NCBI RefSeq assembly: GCF_000376225.1
Contig: NZ_AQXL01000131.1
Location: 1-64,000, forward strand
Direction: 5' to 3'
Origin: Effusibacillus pohliae DSM 22757
GTDB lineage: Bacteria; Bacillota; Bacilli; Tumebacillales; Effusibacillaceae
Length of the DNA stretch: 64,000 bases
In this document: positions 43,764 through 62,882 of the stretch, piece by piece
Layout: each line of letters starts with the position of its first letter
How positions within the stretch are numbered: the first letter of the stretch is position 1
Made by a program: the position numbers and the translations under genes
The notes under the pieces: model-generated
The model's input: the letters and a program-made list of their open reading frames with translations, nothing else
Databases searched by the model: none
Told to the model about the DNA's origin: nothing

Positions 43764-45167
43764 TCAGTTGAAAGCCGCTTCCGTAGACGTTTTGGCATAG
43801 TGGCCGCCGTTTGGCAACTGTTCCGGATAGCCGGATGCGCCGTGTTCGCTGATGTCCAGTCCGATGATCTCCTCTTCGCGGCTGATCCGCAGACCCACCG
43901 TGACTTTGATCAGGTACATGATGACAAACGATGCCACGAACACATAGGCGAATGAGGCAGCAACACCCAAGAACTGTACCCACAGTTGATGCAAACCGCC
44001 GCCGTAGAACAAACCCGGCTGACCGACACCAACCTTTTCAACGAGGTCAGGAGCAGCAAAGAACCCTGTCGAAAGTGTTCCCCAGATCCCGGCGACGCCG
44101 TGAACCGAGAAAGCCCCAACCGGATCGTCGATCTTCAGCACGCGTTCGAAGAAGAGAACCGAGAATACCATCACAATCCCTGCGATTGCACCGATTACCA
44201 CAGCCGCCCACGGTTTGACGAACGCACAGGATGCGGTAATCGCAACCAAAGCTGCCAAAACGCCATTTAACATGTAGCCGATGTCCGGTTTACCGAGTAC
44301 CGCCCAGACGGTGAACACAGCTGCTACGGCACCGGCTGCTGCCGCCAGATTGGTGGTCAGTGCCACATACGGGAAGAACGCTCCGTTTGCCGCCAAGGTC
44401 GAACCCGCATTAAATCCGAACCAACCAAACCAGAGAATGATTACGCCCAAGACAGAATATACCATGTTATGGCCCGGAATCGTGTTCGACGTACCGTCCT
44501 TGTTGTACTTCCCGATACGCGGTCCCAACAGGATGGCGCCAACGAGAGCCGCAGTTCCTCCAACCAGGTGAACGACCGTCGATCCAGCAAAATCCTGCAT
44601 GCCCAGGCTGGACAGCCAGCCGCCGCCCCACACCCAGTGGCCGATCACCGAATAAATCGCGGCGATGAATACAGTTCCAAACACGAAGTAGACGATCAAT
44701 TTTGCACGCTCTGCGATTCCGCCCCAGAAGATCGCCAACGATACGCCTGCAAATACGACCTGGAAGAGGAATTTGGCGCCAAGCGGTACACCGGATGCGG
44801 AAAGAGACGCAAACACCTCATTCACCTGATCATCCGCTACATGCAAGAACCAACCGCTCGTACCGAATACACTGTTTCCTGTTCCGAAAGTAATGGCAAA
44901 ACCAACCGCCCAGAATACAAGTGTCGTAAGTGCGAAGCTGAGCACGTTTTTGCCGGCAATATGCCCTGCGTTTTTCATCCGCGTGGCTCCCGCTTCCAAC
45001 AACGCGAACCCGGCTTGCATCAAGAACACCAGAACCGCTGCCACAATCACCCATACAGAGTCGACCGCGAGCATCGCGTCCTGAACAGTCGGTTCTTGTC
45101 CGGCAGCCAGCGCCTGCCCGGTCAACATCGACAAAAGAATCGGCAACAGCGTCAATCCTTTTTTCAT
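43764..45167 (-). CDS. amtB: ammonium transporter AmtB
   Basis: 467 residues: signal peptide, then eleven hydrophobic segments with the ammonium-channel signature D-F-A-G-S-T-V-V-H near 200, and the pore histidines and phenylalanines in the usual places. The ATG at 45167 follows AGGAG by five bases. Normally amtB is paired with a PII gene (glnK); none is present here. Instead an ANTAR regulator gene lies immediately upstream. Confidence 0.95.
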   Translation of the reverse strand: MKKGLTLLPILLSMLTGQALAAGQEPTVQDAMLAVDSVWVIVAAVLVFLMQAGFALLEAGATRMKNAGHIAGKNVLSFALTTLVFWAVGFAITFGTGNSVFGTSGWFLHVADDQVNEVFASLSASGVPLGAKFLFQVVFAGVSLAIFWGGIAERAKLIVYFVFGTVFIAAIYSVIGHWVWGGGWLSSLGMQDFAGSTVVHLVGGTAALVGAILLGPRIGKYNKDGTSNTIPGHNMVYSVLGVIILWFGWFGFNAGSTLAANGAFFPYVALTTNLAAAAGAVAAVFTVWAVLGKPDIGYMLNGVLAALVAITASCAFVKPWAAVVIGAIAGIVMVFSVLFFERVLKIDDPVGAFSVHGVAGIWGTLSTGFFAAPDLVEKVGVGQPGLFYGGGLHQLWVQFLGVAASFAYVFVASFVIMYLIKVTVGLRISREEEIIGLDISEHGASGYPEQLPNGGHYAKTSTEAAFN

Positions 45168-45195
45168 CCTGTCTCCTCCATTCATGTGTGTTTCC

Positions 45196-45792
45196 TTACC
45201 CTGACATGTCAGTGAGATCCTGCAGCAGCAGAATGCTCTCCGCAATCTGTACCATGCTCTTGCGGTTGCGCATTGCCTCCCGCCGAATCCGCCCGTACGC
45301 TTCCGCTTCCGAGAGTGCGAACCGGTCCATCAAAAGCCCCTTCGCCCGTTCGATCAATTTTCGATTGTTCAGCTCGGTCAGCGCCTGTTCCGCCCGTTTC
45401 CGGTACATCCGTTCGCTTTGCCAGCCGGCGACGGCGGTTTTGACCGAACAAACGGCAGCCAACGGGTCGGTTGCGGGCGTCAGGATGCCCTTTGCCCCGA
45501 TCTCGTCGAACAAGCGGACGACTTTCCGGTTCAGGCGGGCAACGGCCCACAGCACAGGTCCTTGTTCGGCCTGCAGCAACGCTTGCGTCCAGCTGGCCAA
45601 ATCGACATCGTCCTGCAAAATGCAAGCCTCAGCAGCCACCTGCACGGCGATGGCGGCAACCGCCTGCTCGCCGGATTCCGGCTGTTGCGGAACCTGGACA
45701 AACCGCAGACGATACGGGCATTCGGCCAACACCGACGGCAACCATCCGTTCAGCCGATTACCGGAACCGATGACCACAATTTCATCACGCAC
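45196..45792 (-). CDS. ANTAR-domain RNA-binding antiterminator with degenerate receiver
   Basis: About 198 residues. The C-terminal 60 (N-R-K-L-I-E-R-A-K-G-L-L-M followed by S-E-A-E-A-Y-G-R-I-R-R-E-A-M) match the ANTAR domain that binds paired hexaloop hairpins and blocks terminators, as in NasR, NasT, AmiR and EutV. The N-terminal half has the length of a receiver domain but not a clear phospho-acceptor site, so the signal is probably not phosphorylation. It sits 28 bases before amtB. Candidate targets are the nas and narK leaders at 62.7 and 48.8 kb. GTG at 45792 is preceded by GGGGAGG; an upstream GTG at 45807 is possible. Confidence 0.85.
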   Translation of the reverse strand: MRDEIVVIGSGNRLNGWLPSVLAECPYRLRFVQVPQQPESGEQAVAAIAVQVAAEACILQDDVDLASWTQALLQAEQGPVLWAVARLNRKVVRLFDEIGAKGILTPATDPLAAVCSVKTAVAGWQSERMYRKRAEQALTELNNRKLIERAKGLLMDRFALSEAEAYGRIRREAMRNRKSMVQIAESILLLQDLTDMSG

Positions 45793-45822
45793 CCGCCTCC
45801 CCCTCACTTCTTTCCGGTTTCA

Positions 45823-47453: not shown

Positions 47454-48692
47454 TTATCCGCTGATGCCGGAACTGACCTGGCCGACCTTTGCCTTGCCTC
47501 CTTCTCCGATCCAGGTTCGCTTCCATTGCCCCTGTACCGCCAGCAAAAGCAGGAAGGCGCAAACGGCTATTCCGGACAAAGCAAGGAAACCGGGTGTGAA
47601 GGAACCGGTCGACTGCTTCAGGTTGCCGAGAATCTTGGGCAGGAAATAGCCGCCCAGGCCACCCGCCGCCCCGACGATTCCGGTGATAATGCCGATCTCC
47701 TGCTGGAACCGTTGCGGCACCAACTGGAACACGGAGCCGTTGCCCATCCCCAGACTCATCATGGCAATAAACAGCATCACGGTCGTCGGCCCCAGTCCGG
47801 GCAGTGTCGAGATGCCGGCCATCATCGCGGCGACCACCAGGTAGAGACCGGTCAGCATCCGAATCCCGCCGACTTTGTCAGCCAGCCATCCCCCCACCGG
47901 TCGGAAGAAACTCCCGGCGATCACGCACAAGGTGGCAAAATCAGCCGCCCGCACGGGAGACAATCCGTATTGCGTGTTGAAAAATATCGTCAGATAGCTG
48001 GACATGCCGACAAAGCCGCCGAATGTGACGCTGTAAAAGATGCAGAAAAACCAAGCGTCTTTTTGCTTCAATACGTTCGCGTAATCGGCCCACTTCCGGG
48101 GTTCGGGTTGATTGGGGCTGTCCTTTGCCAGCAGGGAAAACAAGACAAAGGTAATAAGCACCGGAAGCAGGGCGAAACCGAACACCACATGCCAGTCGCC
48201 GCCAAAATGCTGTGCGATCCGGTTGGCAAAGAGAGTCGTAAAGATGGTGCCGCTGTTACCCGCACCCGCGATTCCCATCGCCAATCCCTGGTACTGCGGC
48301 GGATACCAGCGGCTGGCAAGCGGCAGCGCCGCCGCAAAGCTGGCTCCAGCCACCCCCAGCAACAGAGCGATTACGTATAGCTGGTTCATGCTGTCCGCCA
48401 ACAGCCAGCCCCAGGAAAGCGGAATCATGGTGAGCAGCATCCCGATCTGTCCGGTCTTTTTCGGGCCGATCGAATCGGTCAAATACCCGAGCACCAGCCG
48501 CAGGATCGAACCGCCCAAAGTCGGCAGGGCGACCAGGTTGGCCTTATCGGCTGCGTTCAAGTGAAAGTCGTTTGCAATCACAACGGCAAGCGGTCCCAAA
48601 AGCACCCAGACCATAAAACTCACGTCAAAATACAGGAACGCGCTGAACAAAGACGGCGTATGGCCGCTTTTTAAGAAACCTTTAGGCTGCAC
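47454..48692 (-). CDS. narK: nitrate/nitrite transporter (NarK/NasA type MFS)
   Basis: 412 residues, twelve hydrophobic segments, with the nitrate-porter signatures: an early [21 protein letters not shown] near segment 4, a G-x-G-N-S-G in segment 5 and [15 protein letters not shown]. It imports nitrate for the reductase encoded at 60.4-62.6 kb. Start at a GTG with GGGAG eight bases upstream. Its long leader holds an attenuator and a TnrA-dependent promoter. Confidence 0.92.
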
Positions 48693-48790
48693 TCTGTCCA
48701 CTCCCTCTCTTTTTTCATCTTCAGGAAAAGAAAAATAAAACCATTCCTCCGCTGCCGCCCTCTCTCCATCCCCCTTTGCGTCCATCCGGC

Positions 48791-48851
48791 AAAAAAAGCC
48801 TCTGCTCGTTTCCGAACAGGGGCTTCATTGCCCGGCCATGCCACTCTGGCA
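48791..48851 (-). promoter_or_regulatory. ANTAR-type attenuator in the narK leader
   Basis: Downstream element: GGGC-AATGAA-GCCC (48820-48833), a hairpin with a six-base loop that has A at position 1 and G at 4, the rule for ANTAR targets. Its 3' arm is also the 5' arm of a terminator, GCC-CTGTTCG-GAAA-CGAGCAG-GGC followed by seven T, so the two exclude each other. The upstream hairpin TGCC-AGAGT-GGCA (48839-48851) has a five-base loop and is a less certain partner. Confidence 0.75.
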
Positions 48852-48880
48852 CACAGCAAGATGTTTTCTCAGTTGAGAGA

Positions 48881-48930
48881 ATAGTACAGAGGCCAGCTGT
48901 ACACAACCCCTCATGTTATGTTTTCTGACA
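48881..48930 (-). promoter_or_regulatory. TnrA-activated promoter of narK
   Basis: A -10 TACTAT without a good -35 predicts a start near 48874. A perfect TnrA box, TGTTATGTTTTCTGACA on the plus strand (48914-48930), is centred about 48 bp upstream. Confidence 0.75.
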
Positions 48931-51188: not shown

Positions 51189-53246
51189 CTAAAACAGAAA
51201 ATAGCGCTGTGCCATCGGCACCGTCTCGGCCGGTTCGCAGGTTACCCGTTCCCCGTCCGCCATCACCTCATATGTCTCCGGGTCCACTTCAATCTTTGGT
51301 GTGACATCATTGTGAATCATGTCTTTTTTCCCGATGTTCCGGCAATTTTTCACCGGCAACACCTGTTTTGCCAATCCGAGTTGCTGCGGCACCCCCGCTT
51401 CCCAAGCCGCTTTTGAAACAAACGTGATCGCACATTTCGCAACCGCTTTGCCAAAAGAAGCAAACATCGGACGCCCCATCACCGGTTGCGGAGTCGGAAT
51501 CGACGCATTCGGATCCCCCATCGCGGCATAGGTGATAAAACCGCCTTTCAATACCAGTTCCGGCTTGACGCCAAAAAAAGCCGGCTTCCACAAAACGAGA
51601 TCAGCCCATTTTCCGCGCTCGATCGAACCGACGTATTCGGCAATTCCGTGGGCAATGGCAGGATTGATCGTGTATTTCGCCAGATAGCGTTTGACCCGGA
51701 AATTGTCGTTGTCCCCCGTCTCTTCCGGCAGAGGACCTCTTTGTTTCTTCATCTTGTCGGCCGTTTGCCAAGTCCGGAGAATCACCTCCCCCACTCTCCC
51801 CATCGCCTGCGAATCGGAACTGATGATGCTGAATACGCCGAGATCATGAAAAATATCTTCGGCCGCAATCGTCTCCGGCCGGATCCTGGAATCGGCAAAC
51901 GCCACATCCTCCGGGATCCGGCTGTCCAAATGGTGGCACACCATCAACATGTCAAGGTGTTCGTCAATCGTGTTCACCGTAAAAGGCCGTGTCGGGTTGG
52001 TGGAAGAAGGCAGGACGTTCGGTTCCCCGGCCAGCCGGATGATGTCAGGAGCGTGTCCGCCGCCCGCCCCTTCCGTATGGTAGGTGTGGATGGTGCGTCC
52101 GGCGATCGCCCGGATGGTATCTTCCACAAATCCCGCTTCATTCAGTGTGTCGGTATGAATCGCCACCTGGACGTCGAAGCGGTCCGCGACTGTCAGGCAC
52201 GTGTCGATCGCGACCGGCGTCGTTCCCCAGTCCTCATGCAATTTCAACCCGATGGCCCCGGCCTGAATCTGCTCTTCCAACGCCGCTGCATCCGACGCGT
52301 TCCCCTTCCCGAGAAATCCCAGATTCATCGGAAATGCTTCCGCCGCCTCCAGCATGCGGTGAATATTCCAGGCACCCGGGGTGCAGGTCGTGGCATTCGT
52401 CCCTGTGGCTGGCCCGGTGCCGCCGCCGATCATGGTGGTGATACCGGATGCCAGCGCGGTTTCAATCTGCTGCGGACAGATGAAGTGGATATGGGTGTCG
52501 ATCCCGCCCGGTGTGACGATCAGACCTTCTCCGGCAATCACTTCGGTCGAGGCGCCCACCACCAGTTCCGGATCCACCCCATCCATCACATCCGGATTGC
52601 CCGCTTTTCCGACACCGACGATGTGTCCATCCTTGATTCCGATATCCGCCTTCACAATCCCCCAATAATCGAGAATCAACGCGTTGGTGATCACTACATC
52701 CAGTACGCCCTGCGACCGAGTGGCCCGGGATGATTGCCCCATACCGTCCCGCAGCACTTTGCCACCGCCAAACTTGCATTCATCGCCGTAAACGGTGAAA
52801 TCTTTCTCCACCTCGATAAACAACTCCGTATCCGCCAGACGCACTTTGTCACCAGTGGTAGGGCCAAACATGCTGGCGTATGCTTCCCGGGTCATTTTCA
52901 ATCCTGTCTGTTCGGGTGATGGATTTTGCTCAATCGCTTGCTTGACCGACCCGGACACCAGCCCGTTGTGTCCGTAAATTTCCCGGTTGCCGCCGATCGC
53001 GACCAACTGCACGACCTTTTCCTCCCCTGGCTCAAACCGTACCGCCGTTCCGGCAGGGATGTTCAGACGCATTCCCTTGGCTTTTTCACGGTCAAAATCG
53101 AGTTCTTTGTTCACTTCATAAAAATGAAAATGAGACCCCACCTGCACCGGCCGATCTCCCCGGTTAATCACTTTCAAATCGGTCGTTTTCCTTCCGGCAT
53201 TGAGCAAAATCGGTTCGCTTTTCAACCGATATTCACCCGGTATCAT
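51189..53246 (-). CDS. ureC: urease beta-alpha fusion (UreB-UreC)
   Basis: 685 residues. Residues 1-105 are a full UreB ([12 protein letters not shown], then [11 protein letters not shown]). A short linker ([12 protein letters not shown]) leads without a stop into a full UreC ([12 protein letters not shown]). The active-site residues are intact: T-H-I-H-F, the carbamylated lysine in [16 protein letters not shown] and the flap H-H-L-D-S-R-I-P-E. An ATG at the UreC start with AGGA before it could also give separate UreC. The start at 53246 follows GGGAG. Confidence 0.95.
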
Positions 53247-55520: not shown

Positions 55521-55553
55521 AAAAAAGGAGTTAACAAACAGATTGTTAACTCC
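55521..55553 (-). terminator. riboswitch terminator
   Basis: GGAGTTAACAA and TTGTTAACTCC form an 11-base stem followed by TTTTTT. The 5' arm overlaps the last bases of the guanidine aptamer (GGGAGGAG). Confidence 0.9.
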
Positions 55554-55657
55554 TCCCGGGCTTTTGTCCCTCCGTGTAGCATTTGCACCAGGCAAATGCC
55601 GTTCTCTCTTGGACCAGTCCCCACCGAACATCCCGTGGGCGGAACCCTAGAAAACCT
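55552..55657 (-). promoter_or_regulatory. guanidine-I (ykkC) riboswitch
   Basis: Minus-strand landmarks are in the right order: TCTAGGGTTCCG, then GGACTGGTCCAAGAG, then TACACGGAGGGACAAAAG and CCCGGGAGG. The second conserved block, ACGGAGGGA with AAAAGCCCGGGAG, is the guanidine-I type, not the ppGpp or PRPP subtypes. It precedes a terminator, so guanidine should turn on what follows. What follows is now the urease operon with a damaged front. Confidence 0.9.
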
Positions 55658-55679
55658 TGATCTATGTGGTTGTGGTTTG

Positions 55680-55846: not shown

Positions 55847-56257
55847 CTATTTTTTCTGCTGATTTTTGTAAAACTGTGCCAATTGACCTTCAATGATGGA
55901 GGTTGACCAGGAACGTTCGGTCCGATTGTGCAGTTGATTGCGAATTCCCCGCAGCAGGCGGGCGTCGTCCAGTTCCGTTTCCGAAGGCAGGGGTTGCTGC
56001 ACCGGTTCCGAGGGCGTCTGCGGCGGCTCCAGGATCTGCTTGATCTGGTAAATCGGATACTCCTGATCCATCATGTCTTTGATCCGCAACAACCGCGCCA
56101 CGTCATTGATCGAGTACAGCCGTTGCTCGCCTTCAGAACGGAGCGGACTGACAAGTCCCAGTTCTTCGTAATAGCGAATTTGCCGCAGGGATAGCCCTGT
56201 TAATTTTTTCACAATCCCGATCGTCAGCACGGCCATGTCGCGAGGCACCGGATCCAC
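55847..56257 (-). CDS. tnrA: nitrogen regulator TnrA (MerR family)
   Basis: 136 residues: a MerR-type winged helix (T-I-G-I-V-K-K-L-T-G-L-S-L-R-Q-I-R-Y-Y-E-E-L-G-L) shared by GlnR and TnrA, and a C-terminus ending I-I-E-G-Q-L-A-Q-F-Y-K. The last part resembles the M-L-E-G-Q-L-N-A-H-F tail by which Bacillus TnrA binds feedback-inhibited glutamine synthetase, so TnrA fits better than GlnR. GTG start with GGAGG nine bases upstream. The TnrA boxes around it are the expected targets. Confidence 0.88.
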   Translation of the reverse strand: MDPVPRDMAVLTIGIVKKLTGLSLRQIRYYEELGLVSPLRSEGEQRLYSINDVARLLRIKDMMDQEYPIYQIKQILEPPQTPSEPVQQPLPSETELDDARLLRGIRNQLHNRTERSWSTSIIEGQLAQFYKNQQKK

Positions 56258-56377: not shown

Positions 56378-57400
56378 TTATGGCGATTCCGCCGGCGCCC
56401 TGCGCCAATCCTCAAATTTCTTCCACGCGTCTCCCGCATCCAGTACGGAGCGGCCGAGTTCGATTCCCTCTCCCATGTTTTGCACCCGTTCCGTCAGCCA
56501 CAAACGCAACCCGCTGTTGAGCAGCACCATATTTCGGTACGCATGTTCTCCTTGCAGCACGCCGGCGATCGACGCAGCCTGTTCGGCGGCCGTCAAATTC
56601 GCCGGTTCATTTTCCGCGTGCAGTCCGTATCGCTTTGGATCGATCAGGTGTTTTTCCATCGTGCCGTCCTGAATCCAATACAAGGCGGAAGGACGGTTGA
56701 CGGGCACATCCTCCGAACCGTCGATTCCCTGCACGATCATCGCCCGCTTGTAACCCAGTTTCACCGCCAGCTCCGCCGCCTTTTCGAGAACGGTCGTGTG
56801 GAAGACGCCCGCCACCAGATAGTCGGCGTTTGCGAGGTTGAGGAATTTTTCCGCTGTATTGAGCAGCGTCCGCACCCCGAGCTGTTCGCGAACCGGACGC
56901 AGTTGTCTAAGCGGCCGGCAAAAATTTTCCGTGTCGATGAACGCGATCCCCAATTGATTGAGCATCCGGCCAACCGTTTGCCCGTCGCCGCCTGTCGGAA
57001 CGCCCGCCTCGCGCAGGATTTCACGCAAGCTGACCCCATACTTGGGCGGCAGCGTTCCGCTTCCGTGCAAGACGACCGGCACGCCGGCCGCAGCCAAAAC
57101 GGCCGCCACCGGGATGGTCGCCGCAAACGATTTTGCCCGCCCATCATAAGGCCCGGCACAATCCAAAACACCGCCGAGCGAATGCGGGATCACGGTGGAC
57201 CGCTCCCGGGCAGCCTCGATAAACGCGAGCAGTTCGTCGACCGTCTCGCCTTTCACCCGTTCCGCGATGAAAAATGCGCCGATCTGGGCATCGCTCGCCT
57301 GCCCGTCAAAAATCTGTGCGGCCGCTTCCTTGGCCGCTTCGTACGGGAGATCCTTGGCCCCTTTTTTGCCGCGGCCGACTTCCTTGAGAAATTGCTGCAT
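56378..57400 (-). CDS. TrpD2/YbiB-like glycosyl transferase family 3 protein
   Basis: 340 residues with the anthranilate-phosphoribosyltransferase fold: an N-terminal helical domain and the V-V-L-H-G-S-G-T-L-P-P-K-Y-G loop where true TrpD has G-N-R. The altered loop and absence of trp neighbours point to the TrpD2 branch, known for binding nucleic acid rather than making tryptophan. It lies directly after nirD, a location seen in nitrate-assimilation clusters; the role there is not known. Confidence 0.8.
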   Translation of the reverse strand: MQQFLKEVGRGKKGAKDLPYEAAKEAAAQIFDGQASDAQIGAFFIAERVKGETVDELLAFIEAARERSTVIPHSLGGVLDCAGPYDGRAKSFAATIPVAAVLAAAGVPVVLHGSGTLPPKYGVSLREILREAGVPTGGDGQTVGRMLNQLGIAFIDTENFCRPLRQLRPVREQLGVRTLLNTAEKFLNLANADYLVAGVFHTTVLEKAAELAVKLGYKRAMIVQGIDGSEDVPVNRPSALYWIQDGTMEKHLIDPKRYGLHAENEPANLTAAEQAASIAGVLQGEHAYRNMVLLNSGLRLWLTERVQNMGEGIELGRSVLDAGDAWKKFEDWRRAPAESP

Positions 57401-57529
57401 TGTGTTCCGCCCCTTCGTCGCGATTCCCGCCAAAGCCATACCAACCGAAAACATACGATGCACCATCCAAACGGCTGCCGTTTCGGGAGACCCGAATCGT
57501 TCGCCAACCGGACGCTCTAGCAGGAATCG

Positions 57530-57569
57530 AAAGTGTATACCAGTCTTCCTACATACTGATATACACTTT
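57530..57569 (-). terminator. long AT-rich hairpin at the end of nirD
   Basis: AAAGTGTATA and TATACACTTT, extended by CAGT/ACTG, pair around a ten-base loop that overlaps the nirD stop. There is little GC and no T-run beyond the stem, so it may be a processing or stability element. Confidence 0.5.
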
Positions 57570-57869
57570 CTCGTTCACCACGTCTACCTGGAACGTCGTG
57601 ACACATCCGTTGTCGGGGGCCTGCACATTCCCGTCTCGCAAACAGATTTTCCAGTCGTGCAGCGGGCAGAATACGTACTCCCCGCAGACGATTCCTTCCG
57701 CCAGCGGCCCGCCTTTATGCGGACAGCGGTTTTCCACCGCCCGCACCTCGCCTGTGCTCAGGCGAAACAATGCGATTTCGCGTCCGTCCACTTTCACCAC
57801 CCTGCCCGTTTGCACGGTCAGTTCCTGTAATGTGGCCACTTGCAGCCTGACCGCCTGTACTCCTTTCAT
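57549..57869 (-). CDS. nirD: nitrite reductase small subunit NirD (Rieske)
   Basis: 106 residues with both cluster-binding motifs: C-P-H-K-G-G-P-L and C-P-L-H-D-W. It partners NirB in NADH-dependent reduction of nitrite to ammonium. AGGAGGG lies seven bases before the ATG at 57869. About 120 bases separate it from nirB. Confidence 0.93.
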   Translation of the reverse strand: MKGVQAVRLQVATLQELTVQTGRVVKVDGREIALFRLSTGEVRAVENRCPHKGGPLAEGIVCGEYVFCPLHDWKICLRDGNVQAPDNGCVTTFQVDVVNEKVYISM

Positions 57870-57987
57870 CGCAATCCCTCCTCGCGAGACTTGTGCATTT
57901 TGGGCCTCAATTCCGCCTGGCTGCCGCTCCCACGGGGTCGCCAAAACAGCTGTCACCCAACCGCGGAGAAGCGGGAAGCACCACCAT

Positions 57988-60434
57988 CTATTGTCTGTCC
58001 CCCGCCAGCACCGACAGCTCCTCAAACAGCGAACGAGACTGTTGGTTGCGGACGATCTCCTGCCACGGATCTTTCAAGACCGACAGCGCCACGTCGATCC
58101 GTTCGTTCAACTGGCGGCGGGTTTCCGGATCGTCCAGCACCTGCCGGATCGCGTCCACGCCGACCCGTTCCACCCAATAGGACGTGCGTTCCCCGTAGTT
58201 GGCGTTTTCCCGGTAGTACTGCAGGAACGCGCCGATCCATTCCATCACTTCCGCTTCCGTCTTCACCTTGCACAGCAGATCGCCGGCCCGCACATGCACG
58301 CCGCCGTTGCCGCCGACGTAGAGTTCCCAGCCGCCGTCGATTCCCACGACGCCCACATCTTTGATTCCCGATTCCGCACAGTTGCGGGGACATCCGGACA
58401 CCGCCATCTTCACCTTCGCCGGCGTGTTCAGCCGTTCAAATTTTTTCTCGATGTCGATACCCATCTGGATCGAATTTTGCGTTCCAAACCGGCAAAAATC
58501 GCTTCCGACGCACGTTTTGACGGTACGGATCGCCTTGCCGTAAGCAAATCCGGACGGCATGTCGAGTTCTTCCCAGATCTTCGGCAAATCTTCCTTTTTC
58601 ACACCCAACAGATCGAGCCGCTGGCCGCCGGTGATTTTCACCATCGGCACCCGGTATTTCTCGGCCACTTCGGCAATCCGTTTCAGTTCTGCAGGCGAGG
58701 TGACGCCCCCATAGATGCGGGGGACCACCGAATAGGTGCCGTCCTTTTGGATGTTGGCGTGCATCCGTTCGTTGACGAAGCGGGACTCCGGCTCGTCCGC
58801 ATGTGCGTCCGGCCAGAGCAGGTTGAGATAATAATTGAGCGCCGGCCTGCATTTGGAACATCCTTCCGGCTCATGCCATTCCAGCACGTGCATCACTTCC
58901 CGCACGCTCGTCAGACCCTTTTCCCTGATTTCCGCCAGCACTTCTTCCCGGCTCAGCGATGTGCAGGAACAAATCGGCTCTTTCTGCGCCGCCGCAACCG
59001 CGTCGCCCAGGACGTGCTCCAACAGTTGGGCCACCAGCGGTTTGCAGCCGCCGCAAGAGCGTGACGCCCCGGTGCAGCCCTTGATCTCTTCCACCGAGCA
59101 CAGCCCTTTTTCGCGGATCGCTCGCACGATTCTGCCCTTCGACACCCCGTTGCAGCCGCACACGATCTCGTCGTCCGCCATCGCCGCAACGGCAGATGCG
59201 CCGCCCGCCCCCCTGGCTGCTCCGCCTGCCGTCGCAGCCGGATTTTCCAAAATCGACACGCGCCGAATCTGCATCACATCGGTACCGTTTCGCATCATCT
59301 GCAAAATGCGGGAACTGTCGCTTGTATCCCCGAACAGCACAGCGCCGACCACTTTGTTGTCGCGCACCAGAATTTTTTTGTAGATGCCGGCGAACTCGTC
59401 GTGCACGCGGATCGCTCGCGTGTCGGGACTGTCCAGAAACTCGCCGGCGGAAAATACATCCACCCCCGACACCTTCAGCTTCGTATAGACGATCGAACCT
59501 TCGTACGGCGCGGTTTCCACTCCGCAGAGCCGTTTGGCCAGGACCTGCCCCTGCTCAAACAAAGGCGCCACCAGTCCGTAGACCACCCCGCGGTGCTCCG
59601 CGCATTCCCCCACCGCGTACACATGCGGCACGTTCGTTTCCAGATAGTCGTTGACCACGATGCCGCGGTTGACCTCGATGCCGCTGTCCTTCGCCAGACT
59701 TACGTTCGGCTTGATGCCGACCGCCATCACGATCAGATCGGCTGCCTCCTCCGTGCCGTCCGCAAACCGCAGCCCGGTCGCCCGCTTGCCGCCGAGGATT
59801 TCGGCCGACTGCTTTTCCAGCAGGAACCGCATCCCCTGCTTTTCCAGCTCCCGCTGCAAGAGCTTCGACGCAACCGGGTCCAGCTGCCGCTCCATCAGAT
59901 TGTCGAAAATGTGAACGACACTGACCTCCATCGACAGGTTGAGCAGCCCGCGCGCCGCTTCCAGCCCGAGCAATCCGCCGCCGATAACGATCGCTTTTTT
60001 GTATTTCTTCGAGGCTTCGATCATCGTCTCACAGTCCTTGATGTCCCGGAACGGATCACCCCTTCCTTGTCGGTGCCGGGAATCGGCAGCATGAACGGCA
60101 GCGAGCCGGTGGCGAGAATCAGATCGTCATACGGTTCCACGATCCCGCCATCGGTGTAGACCAAACGCTTCTCCGTATCGATTTTCGTCACCGTCTGACC
60201 GGCGTGCAGCATGATTCCGTTTTGCTCATACCAATCCCAGTCATTCAGCACGATGTCCCGGATGTCCGCATCGCCTGCCAGCACGGATGACAACAAAATC
60301 CGGTTGTAGTTCGGATGCGGCTCTTTGCCAAAAATGGTGATCGCAAACCGGTCCGGCGCCAGCTGCAGAATCTCCTCGACGCACCGGACGCCGGCCATTC
60401 CGTTACCGACCAGCACCAATTTTTGCTTGTTCAT
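57988..60434 (-). pseudogene. nirB: nitrite reductase large subunit NirB, split by a frameshift
   Basis: The first frame (from 60434) gives the FAD-binding start (V-L-V-G-N-G-M-A-G-V-R) and runs to G-T-D-K-E-G-V-I. One base is then missing at about 60050, and the frame stops at 60021. The next frame continues F-R-D-I-K-D-C-E-T-M-I-E-A-S and is complete: NAD-binding I-G-G-G-L-L-G-L-E, two BFD-type 2Fe-2S motifs (C-G-C-N-G-V-S and C-S-C-T-S-L-S), and siroheme/4Fe-4S cysteines in C-V-G-S-D-F-C and S-G-C-P-R-N-C. If the shift is real the enzyme is lost, unless the second part works alone. Confidence 0.9.
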
Positions 60435-62583
60435 GTTCTTTCTCCCTTTCGCTTCCGGTTCTGATTTTCCTAAACGAGACGGCGCACAATTTAAACTCCG
60501 GCATCCGCGACTCCGGGTCCAGTTCCGGGCTGGTCAGCCGGTTGACGGACCGTTCCTCCTCCCAGTGCATCGGCACAAACAGGGTGTCCGGCCGGATGGA
60601 TGGGGTGATTTTCACCCGGTATTGCACGGTTCCCCGGCGGCTCGCCAGTTCCACCCAATCGCCATCTTCGATCCCGTTGGCCGCCGCCGTCTCCGGATGC
60701 ATCTCGACATACGGTTCGGGGCACCTCGCGTTCAATGACACCGTCCGCCGGGTCTGCACCCCCGTCAAATAGTGGTTGATCAGGCGGCCGGTCGTCAGCC
60801 GATAGGGATAGTCGCCGTCAGGCAGTTCGCCCGCTTCCCTGCATTCAACCGGATGAAACATCGCCTTGCCGTGCGGATGGGCAAACCGCTCGGCAAACAG
60901 CCGCTCCGTGCCCGGATGCTCCTCTGCCGGGCAGGGCCAAAAAACGCCCTTTTGCCGCTCGATCTTTTCGTAACTGATGCCGGAATAATCCGCCTTGCCG
61001 CCTTTGCTCGCCAACCGCAGCTCTTCGAAAATCGCTTGCGGCGAGTCGTACGCGAAAAACCGTCCTTTGCCCAGACGTTCCGCCAGATCGCACAAAATCC
61101 GCCAGTCCGCCCGCGCCTGCCCGGGCGGCCGCTGCGCCGCCCGGCGCAGAATCACGCGGCCTTCCAGATTCGTCATGGTTCCCTCGTCTTCCGTCCAGGC
61201 GGAACCGGGCAGCACGATATCGGCCATTTTCGCCGTTTCGCTTAAAAAGAGATCGACCACCACCAACGTATCCAGCGCCGCCACCGCCCGTTTCACCAGG
61301 TTGCTGTTCGGGCTGGAAGTGACCGGATTGGACGCGAGCACGAACAAGCCTTTGATTTCGCCGGCCGCCATCGCTTCAAACAGCTCATAGGCCGATTTTC
61401 CCTTGCCCGGCAGTTCCCGTTCGTCGATCCCCCAAACGGAAGCGATGTACCGGCGGTGTTCCGGATGCTCGATCGAACGGTAGCCGGGCAGCTGATCCGC
61501 TTTCTGGCCGTGTTCCCGCCCGCCCTGGCCGTTGGCCTGACCGGTCACCGCCCCGTAGCCGCAGCCAGGCCGGCCGATTTTGCCGGATGCCAGCACCAGA
61601 TTGAGACAGCTCAGCACATTGTCGACACCGCGTGCGTGCTGCTCGATACCGCGCGCCGTGTACAGAATCGCCGTCTCCGCCTGCCCGTACCAACGCGCAA
61701 TCTGGCGGATGTGTTCCACCGGCACGTCGGTGATCTGCGCCACCCTTTCCGGCGTATAAGAACGGACCGTCCGTTTCACCTGCTCGAATCCGATCGTGCG
61801 GTTCTCGATAAAATCGGAGTCGATCCAGTTCTCTTCGATCATCACGTGCAGAATGCCGTTCATCAGCGCCAGATCGGTTCCCGGCCGAATCGGGACGTGC
61901 AGATCGGCCAGCTTCGCCGTGCCGGTTGCCCGCGGATCGACAACCACGATCTTCGCCCCGTTTTTCTTCGCCTGCAGCAGGTAGGGAAGGATGGTCGGCT
62001 GGCAGTCGGCCAGATTCGCGCCGACGATCAAAATGAACCGGGCGAGCGGGATGTCATGCAACGGAACCGTCATTCCCCTGTCGATCCCGAACGCCTTGTT
62101 CATGGCGGCCGCCGCCGAGGACATGCAGTAACGCCCGTTGTAGTCGATGTTGCGGGTGCCAAGCGCCACCCGGGCGAATTTTCCGAGCAGATACGCCTTT
62201 TCGTTGGTCAACGACCCGCCGCCGTAAACGGCCACCGCGTCACGCCCGTGCCGCTTCTGGATCGAGGCGAATCGCTCTGCGATCTCATCGATCGCTTCCT
62301 CCCATGTGGCGAGTGAGAATTGCCCGTTTTTCCGGATCAGGGGCACCGTCAGCCGTTCCCGGTGGCGGACATGTTCATGCGCGGCGATTCCTTTCAGGCA
62401 GGCTCTGCCGGATGCGACCGGAAATTCTCTCACCGGCTGCACGCCCGTTATTTTGGATTGAACCGGATCGACGCGCAGTTCAAGCGCACACTGCATGCTG
62501 CAAAAGCAGCAGTGGCTGGCGACGCCGACTTCAGGTGCCGTCTGGTCGACCTTGGTTTGAAACGTATGCAGCAAGTTCTGCAT
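60403..62583 (-). CDS. nasC: assimilatory nitrate reductase catalytic subunit
   Basis: 726-residue molybdopterin oxidoreductase: an N-terminal 4Fe-4S motif (H-C-C-F-C-S-M-Q-C, then C-L-K-G near 60), the molybdenum-binding core (Y-N-G-R-Y-C-M-S-S) and the C-terminal dinucleotide-binding domain (L-T-T-G-R-L-I-N-H-Y). Lack of a Tat signal and the nirB-nirD genes downstream identify the cytoplasmic assimilatory enzyme (NasC/NarB). It needs the Moco made by the moa genes in this window. AAGGAGG precedes the ATG; it overlaps nirB by 32 bases. Confidence 0.94.
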   Translation of the reverse strand: MQNLLHTFQTKVDQTAPEVGVASHCCFCSMQCALELRVDPVQSKITGVQPVREFPVASGRACLKGIAAHEHVRHRERLTVPLIRKNGQFSLATWEEAIDEIAERFASIQKRHGRDAVAVYGGGSLTNEKAYLLGKFARVALGTRNIDYNGRYCMSSAAAAMNKAFGIDRGMTVPLHDIPLARFILIVGANLADCQPTILPYLLQAKKNGAKIVVVDPRATGTAKLADLHVPIRPGTDLALMNGILHVMIEENWIDSDFIENRTIGFEQVKRTVRSYTPERVAQITDVPVEHIRQIARWYGQAETAILYTARGIEQHARGVDNVLSCLNLVLASGKIGRPGCGYGAVTGQANGQGGREHGQKADQLPGYRSIEHPEHRRYIASVWGIDERELPGKGKSAYELFEAMAAGEIKGLFVLASNPVTSSPNSNLVKRAVAALDTLVVVDLFLSETAKMADIVLPGSAWTEDEGTMTNLEGRVILRRAAQRPPGQARADWRILCDLAERLGKGRFFAYDSPQAIFEELRLASKGGKADYSGISYEKIERQKGVFWPCPAEEHPGTERLFAERFAHPHGKAMFHPVECREAGELPDGDYPYRLTTGRLINHYLTGVQTRRTVSLNARCPEPYVEMHPETAAANGIEDGDWVELASRRGTVQYRVKITPSIRPDTLFVPMHWEEERSVNRLTSPELDPESRMPEFKLCAVSFRKIRTGSEREKEHEQAKIGAGR

Positions 62584-62653: not shown

Positions 62654-62751
62654 CATAAAGCGAAATAATCGAAGCCCTGACACGAACCTGTTGCCCGTCC
62701 GGGAGGACACTACGTCCCGGCGGACCGCACGCAGGTTGCTGCAGGGCTTCA
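62654..62751 (-). terminator. long terminator-like stem in the nasC leader
   Basis: GAAGCCCTG pairs with CAGGGCTTC about 60 bases later, with inner AACCTG/CAGGTT and GTCCG/CGGAC helices. GATTATTTCGCTTTATG follows. The 5' arm begins inside hexaloop hairpin P2, so P2 and this stem compete. Confidence 0.65.
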
Positions 62752-62785
62752 TTGCCGCAACACGATTTTGACAACATTGTCAAAA
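62745..62785 (-). promoter_or_regulatory. tandem ANTAR hexaloop hairpins in the nasC leader
   Basis: P1 is TTTTGAC-AATGTT-GTCAAAA (62766-62785), a perfect seven-base stem. P2 is GGC-AATGAA-GCC (62745-62756). Both loops have six bases with A at position 1 and G at position 4, and they are nine bases apart, followed at once by a terminator. This is the architecture recognised by NasR/EutV-type ANTAR proteins. An ANTAR gene lies at 45.2 kb. Confidence 0.85.
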
Positions 62786-62802: not shown

Positions 62803-62819
62803 TGTTATTTTTTCTAACA
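62803..62819. promoter_or_regulatory. second TnrA/GlnR box, downstream of the nas start
   Basis: TGTTATTTTTTCTAACA is a perfect box, centred about 11 bases after the predicted transcription start, where binding would block rather than activate. Confidence 0.7.
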
Positions 62820-62828
62820 TGTACCTTC

Positions 62829-62882
62829 ATTATATACAGGAGGAGGGCGGTTAGCAAGAGGTTTGTGTTAGATTTTCTGACA
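62829..62882 (-). promoter_or_regulatory. TnrA-activated promoter of nasC-nirB-nirD
   Basis: A perfect TATAAT with start near 62822 and no clear -35; the perfect box TGTTAGATTTTCTGACA (62866-62882) is centred about 52 bp upstream. Confidence 0.85.

Follow-up and report, generated by a model that had tools for sequence, protein, structure and literature searches.

Does the leader of an assimilatory nitrate reductase operon in Bacillota carry an RNA switch of its own? In the standard Bacillus subtilis picture, GlnR/TnrA governs how Bacillota assimilate nitrate, and to our knowledge this picture has no nitrate-specific RNA layer. A sequence-only reading of the 64-kb window analyzed here (the whole stretch of DNA under study) had proposed an ANTAR antitermination element in the nasC leader, made of two hexaloop stem-loops and a terminator-like stem, and acting below a TnrA promoter. 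Two-hairpin ANTAR targets with A at loop position 1 (A1) and G at position 4 (G4), in which the second hairpin overlaps a terminator, were defined by Ramesh et al. (2012), and antitermination of nitrogen genes is established for the ANTAR proteins NasR, NasT, and EutV. For nitrate, the proteobacterial systems that have been studied are NasR and NasT (PMC7496416, PMC3795266), in agreement with the sequence-only reading. Since antitermination of this kind is already known, an element at nasC joins a known kind of switch and does not represent a new one.

The two stem-loops, AATGTT and AATGAA, are present on the minus strand, nine bases apart, as claimed (Table 1). The first (P1) consists of the arms TTTTGAC (62785-62779) and GTCAAAA (62772-62766) around its loop (62778-62773), and the second (P2) of GGC (62756-62754) and GCC (62747-62745) around its loop (62753-62748), separated by the linker 62765-62757. 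The stem of P2 comprises three strong pairs only. Published criteria for ANTAR targets ask for two stem-loops, each with 3 bp or more, and a linker of 2-25 nt (PMC8164766); the nasC leader has 7 bp, 9 nt and 3 bp, and both loops are hexanucleotides with A1 and G4. The long hairpin pairs GAAGCCCTG (62750-62742) with CAGGGCTTC (62679-62671) and consumes P2 loop bases 4-6 together with the entire P2 3' arm, so that the sharing of sequence between the terminator-like stem and the second stem-loop is exact. The nasC leader folds with a z-score of -5.1 compared to shuffles. The folding energies are -5.0 kcal/mol for P1 in the ANTAR form, -2.8 kcal/mol for P2 and -46.5 kcal/mol for the long hairpin, which means that without protein the long hairpin wins over P2, as the ANTAR mechanism requires. 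The loop of this hairpin exceeds the length that the promoter/terminator scan accepts, and the nasC terminator was therefore missing from the output of that scan.

Table 1. Features of the 64-kb window that bear on control of the nas operon and narK.
Feature	Position	Strand	Description	Evidence
P1 hairpin, ANTAR target	62766..62785	-	7 bp, hexaloop AATGTT (A1, G4)	Sequence, covariance model, covariation
P2 hairpin, GGC-AATGAA-GCC	62745..62756	-	Hexaloop with A1, G4	Sequence; GGC/GCC and loop letters kept in relatives
Long terminator-like hairpin	62671..62750	-	Mutually exclusive with P2	Folding energy; same arm in relatives
Predicted promoter of nasC transcript	62829..62857	-	TTGCTA-17-TATAAT	Consensus scan
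TnrA/GlnR box	62866..62882	-	TGTCAGAAAATCTAACA; centered ~51 upstream of predicted start	No mismatch
Second TnrA/GlnR box	62803..62819	-	TGTTAGAAAAAATAACA; just 3' of predicted start	1 mismatch
nasC	60403..62583	-	Assimilatory nitrate reductase catalytic subunit	Pfam; NCBIfam NasC 1057 bits (cut-off 1100)
nirB	57988..60434	-	Nitrite reductase large subunit; two overlapping ORFs	Pfam
nirD	57549..58025	-	Rieske-type small subunit	Pfam
TrpD2-like gene	56378..57466	-	Glycos_transf_3 fold; candidate ANTAR partner	No GTGGD motif of TrpD
GlnR/TnrA-like gene	55847..56257	-	MerR-family regulator	Best PDB matches GlnR and TnrA
TnrA/GlnR box before narK	48914..48930	-		1 mismatch
Second ANTAR-like target, before narK	48791..48852	-	P1, P2 and terminator	R1 14 bits; sequence, fold
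narK-type gene	47454..48701	-	Nitrate/nitrite transporter; likely GTG start	NCBIfam TIGR00886 306 bits (cut-off 311.7)
ANTAR protein gene	45196..45807	-	Degenerate receiver-like domain, coiled coil, ANTAR	PF03861 65.4 bits (curated cut-off 27.3)
amtB	43764..45180	-	Ammonium transporter, directly 3' of ANTAR gene; start approximate	Pfam

The predicted nasC transcript starts near 62822, and P1 begins about 37 nt downstream of it. The whole window holds no more than six TnrA/GlnR boxes with at most one mismatch: two upstream of nasC, two upstream of ANTAR-amtB, and one each upstream of narK and of a guanidine-riboswitch operon. The proposed TnrA promoter over the leader is thereby supported, also because the nas operon encodes a GlnR/TnrA-like protein. 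The boxes and the position of this GlnR/TnrA-like gene after the nas genes support a two-step control, in which nitrogen status would act at the promoter and nitrate would act at the leader. In a GlnR study of P. polymyxa (PMC9948412), GlnR sites were described at nasA and nasD and ANTAR was not mentioned. The nirB gene is a single ORF of 805-842 amino acids in most relatives, which indicates a frame break near 60024 in the window, either a draft error or real.

We consider it very probable that the nasC leader is an ANTAR target combined with a terminator-like hairpin, in an operon driven by GlnR/TnrA and opened by ANTAR antitermination in response to nitrate or nitrite, and that narK is controlled alike. 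Promoter activity, direction of control, signal and RNA binding are what we infer in the following scheme. When nitrogen is limiting, GlnR/TnrA would turn on the nasC promoter. By default the nascent RNA would form the long hairpin, and transcription of nasC-nirB-nirD would stop early. Sensing of nitrate or nitrite would release or activate the ANTAR protein, whose dimer would bind the loops of P1 and P2, hold P2 and block the terminator, allowing read-through of the operon. The same mode of control would apply to the narK leader.

The target before narK has a stem, linker and stem of 5 bp, 4 nt and 4 bp. Its P1 (GTGCC-AGAGT-GGCAT) has a five-base loop and departs from the hexaloop criterion, its P2 is GGGC-AATGAA-GCCC, and its terminator ends in a clean TTTTTTT (U7). 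The presence of this target besides the one at nasC suggests a small regulon that covers both uptake and reduction. In both leaders P2 overlaps an intrinsic terminator, classic at narK and with a poor U-run at nasC (GGGCTTCGATTATTTCGC), where termination may be weak, or may need a pause or a factor. The poor U-run after 62671 brings up a different use of the same target, in which the bound ANTAR protein would affect translation or the stability of the RNA, and actinobacterial ANTAR targets that overlap the ribosome-binding site or start codon have been reported (PMC8164766). However, the long hairpin ends 88 bases ahead of the nasC start codon, and the same arms followed by T-runs are found in nearly all relatives and in the narK leader, which makes this alternative improbable.

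Covariance models were used to evaluate the antitermination element, a search that the sequence-only reading had suggested. The first model (R1) was built from seven leaders, all from other genomes and with the window site left out; N padding was placed in the linker of the training set, because MAFFT put gaps into P1. On the 64-kb window, the nasC site ranked first (31.3 bits, E 1.2e-4), followed by the target in the narK leader. For the second model (R2), matches taken from named Bacillota loci of other genomes served as the training set, and over the 3.36-Mb genome the sole R2 match with E < 2 was 62743-62785 (E 0.67, 19.5 bits). Under strict filters at genome scale, R1 did not return the nasC site of the window, which was detected with R2 when fewer genomes were scanned. 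Both models also detect likely EutV targets by the eut genes of another locus (L060, 6114 and 7095), near a EutV-like gene, and these matches are an unplanned positive control for both models.

Seven relatives, ranging from the same genus to the same class, have an ANTAR gene near nas (G001, G002, G007, G033, G049, G016, and G039), and P1, P2 and the terminator were found before nasC, nirB or narK in all seven. In their loops A1 and G4 are retained, and a C-G pair closes each loop. The element sits before narK of a narK-nasC-nirB operon in G049, and G033 has one element on each of two divergent operons. No element was found in G009, which has nasC and no ANTAR match. A single-sequence search of genome contigs with the ANTAR protein gave no match, and the ANTAR alignment was too variable for searching; a set of 79 nirB loci of named Bacillota was therefore gathered with a nirB alignment. 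An ANTAR gene lies beside the cluster in 32 of the 79 loci, including Paenibacillus, Cohnella, Fontibacillus, Gordonibacillus, and Paludifilum. The other 47 (Bacillus, Neobacillus, Robertmurraya, Priestia, and some Paenibacillus) have none beside the cluster. The P2-plus-terminator element was present in the leader of 32/32 loci with ANTAR compared to 1/47 without, and the contig of this single exception (L126) stops before the ANTAR side. Matches in seven further control loci fall outside the leader, and shuffled loci yield about 10 matches per 79. Fisher's test gave 7e-15 when chance matches anywhere in the 47 controls were counted, a value that is no true probability as the loci are related. 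Thus, hexaloops and terminator are kept rather than lost next to nas genes of related genomes, and the view that the hexaloop pair follows the ANTAR target rule gains from both the held-out covariance model and the tracking of the ANTAR gene.

The pairing of P1 is supported by compensatory changes at six of its seven pairs, with 48 double changes among 31 distinct relatives' matches. P1 cells are paired in 96.3% of cases in an alignment that was fitted to the model and is biased in favor of structure; none of 500 shuffles reached this percentage or the covariation score, and pairing falls to 28-41% when the partners are slid by 1-3 columns. P2 gives no covariation signal because its three pairs never vary. 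These data also bear on the possibility that P1 serves as a binding site on DNA, an operator recognized by a repressor or redox regulator, with the long hairpin as an mRNA-stability element and the hexaloops as coincidence. P1 is indeed a perfect 9+9 DNA palindrome (TTTTGACAA-TG-TTGTCAAAA, with 2 bases between the arms) just 3' of the predicted start, but what relatives keep is the fold and the loop letters and not the arm sequence, P2 and the terminator always follow P1, and the presence of the element tracks the ANTAR gene. We regard an operator as very unlikely. An unrelated riboswitch or molybdenum-cofactor RNA, for which a long and stable leader ahead of a molybdoenzyme gene might speak, has hardly any chance, as no Rfam family matched the nasC leader even at E 5 while a guanidine-I riboswitch in the same window was detected, and as conservation does not extend to the distal part of the hairpin, whose base alone shares letters with P2.

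Tandem pairs of targets were found in about eleven loci. In seven loci (L088, L094, L099, L100, L103, L111, and L115) two ANTAR target/terminator units lie about 100 bases apart before narK, which suggests a double gate in several Paenibacillus. At ~9479-9600 of L057 (G049), about 77 bases separate P1 from P2, a linker that is far longer than the reported 2-25 nt and contains an extra hairpin. At ~3980-4040 of L061 (G041), two tandem P2-like hairpins, with a terminator-like hairpin behind each of them, precede an ammonium-transporter gene, and an ANTAR gene lies about 4 kb away.

The ANTAR gene proposed to act on the leader was confirmed 17 kb from it, beside amtB, and is the only ANTAR gene in the genome. 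Its PF03861 score lies above the curated cut-off. The predicted structure (pLDDT 88.7) resembles EutV and AmiR; the best PDB fold match is EutV (6ww6/6wsh), and AmiR (1qo0) is likewise similar. Across eight orthologues, no invariant Asp or Lys was found in the N-terminal half, where a EutV-type response regulator would have its phospho-acceptor Asp, and Pfam searches for a receiver domain gave no match to E 0.1 in seven orthologues or to E 0.01 in the window protein. ANTAR is the sole domain over the Pfam cut-off, with no fused NIT domain as in NasR. The missing Asp/Lys and receiver match, together with the model, indicate that the ANTAR protein is most likely under the control of a partner, as AmiR and NasT are.

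A full-length gene of the PF13379 type, to which NasS belongs, was not found in the ANTAR loci except L119 and L052, and in L052 it lies elsewhere in the nas region. Within the window the sole PF13379-like ORF is truncated and lies at the guanidine locus. PF13379-type genes occur elsewhere in the genomes, and PF13379 is too broad to single out NasS genome-wide, so that a more distant NasS may exist. The candidate partner is a TrpD2-like protein with a phosphoribosyltransferase fold, in which a conserved GPYDGR (DCAGPYDGR) stands where TrpD has its catalytic loop GTGGD. Its gene shares the locus with ANTAR in 27 of 32 loci, mostly adjacent; in G033 and G049 the reading frames of the two genes overlap, and in the window the TrpD2-like gene lies within the nas operon itself. 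TrpD2-like genes also occur in G009, G031, and L124, where no nas-type ANTAR was found, so the protein could be a general nitrate-assimilation factor. AmiC and NasS hold their ANTAR proteins with folds unrelated to that of the TrpD2-like protein. We tentatively raise the idea, itself rather unlikely, that the TrpD2-like protein is the sensor of this Bacillota ANTAR branch, binding nitrate or a nitrogen metabolite and holding the pseudo-receiver ANTAR protein. If true, nitrate antitermination would have gained one more sensor by convergence, and cyanobacterial CnaT might be easier to explain. CnaT is TrpD/glycosyl-transferase-like and may in this resemble the TrpD2-like protein described here, and we know of no ANTAR element for CnaT. 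As activator of the nir operon, CnaT is a regulatory gene of nitrate assimilation (PMC9430850).

Compared to known systems, the Klebsiella NasR/nasF leader is similar in combining a nitrate assimilation operon, a two-hairpin target and ANTAR-domain antitermination, but NasR has its own nitrate-sensing NIT domain, whereas the N-terminal half of the protein studied here is a degenerate receiver-like domain. Proteobacterial NasT/NasS shares a pseudo-receiver-type ANTAR protein acting on a nas leader; here, however, no NasS-type binding protein lies within ~10 kb of ANTAR in 31/32 loci, and the TrpD2-like gene stands in place of the NasS gene. EutV/EutW with the eut leaders (Enterococcus, Bacillota) offers the same RNA element in Bacillota and the best fold match, but EutV, a response regulator, is paired with a kinase and becomes phosphorylated, and the protein described here has no conserved phospho-Asp. 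Pseudomonas AmiR/AmiC has the same arrangement of pseudo-receiver, coiled coil and ANTAR (1qo0) under partner control, but it serves an amide operon with AmiC as sensor, and no such partner gene was recognized here. Among the papers searched, none with both "ANTAR domain" and Paenibacillus was found. The kind of switch is known and its conserved Bacillota nas branch is apparently undescribed, although the supplementary tables of Ramesh et al. (2012) may already list some of the leaders. From these data, Paenibacillus, Cohnella, and relatives are expected to have a second control step, a read-through that responds to nitrate. The survey supplies a ready list of candidate leaders, and the unexplained TrpD2-like partner gene could be the missing sensor.

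Two further RNA matches were observed in the window. The Rfam 5' ureB sRNA family matched 52457-52751 (+) with 98.9 bits, antisense inside the urease alpha gene; many of its pairs are broken, and the match may reflect coding-sequence similarity and not an RNA. The guanidine-I riboswitch (55551-55661, minus strand, 89 bits) has a TnrA/GlnR box upstream and precedes a truncated substrate-binding ORF that runs into an apparent permease remnant of a urea-type transporter, indicating that this guanidine/urea transport operon apparently carries a deletion.
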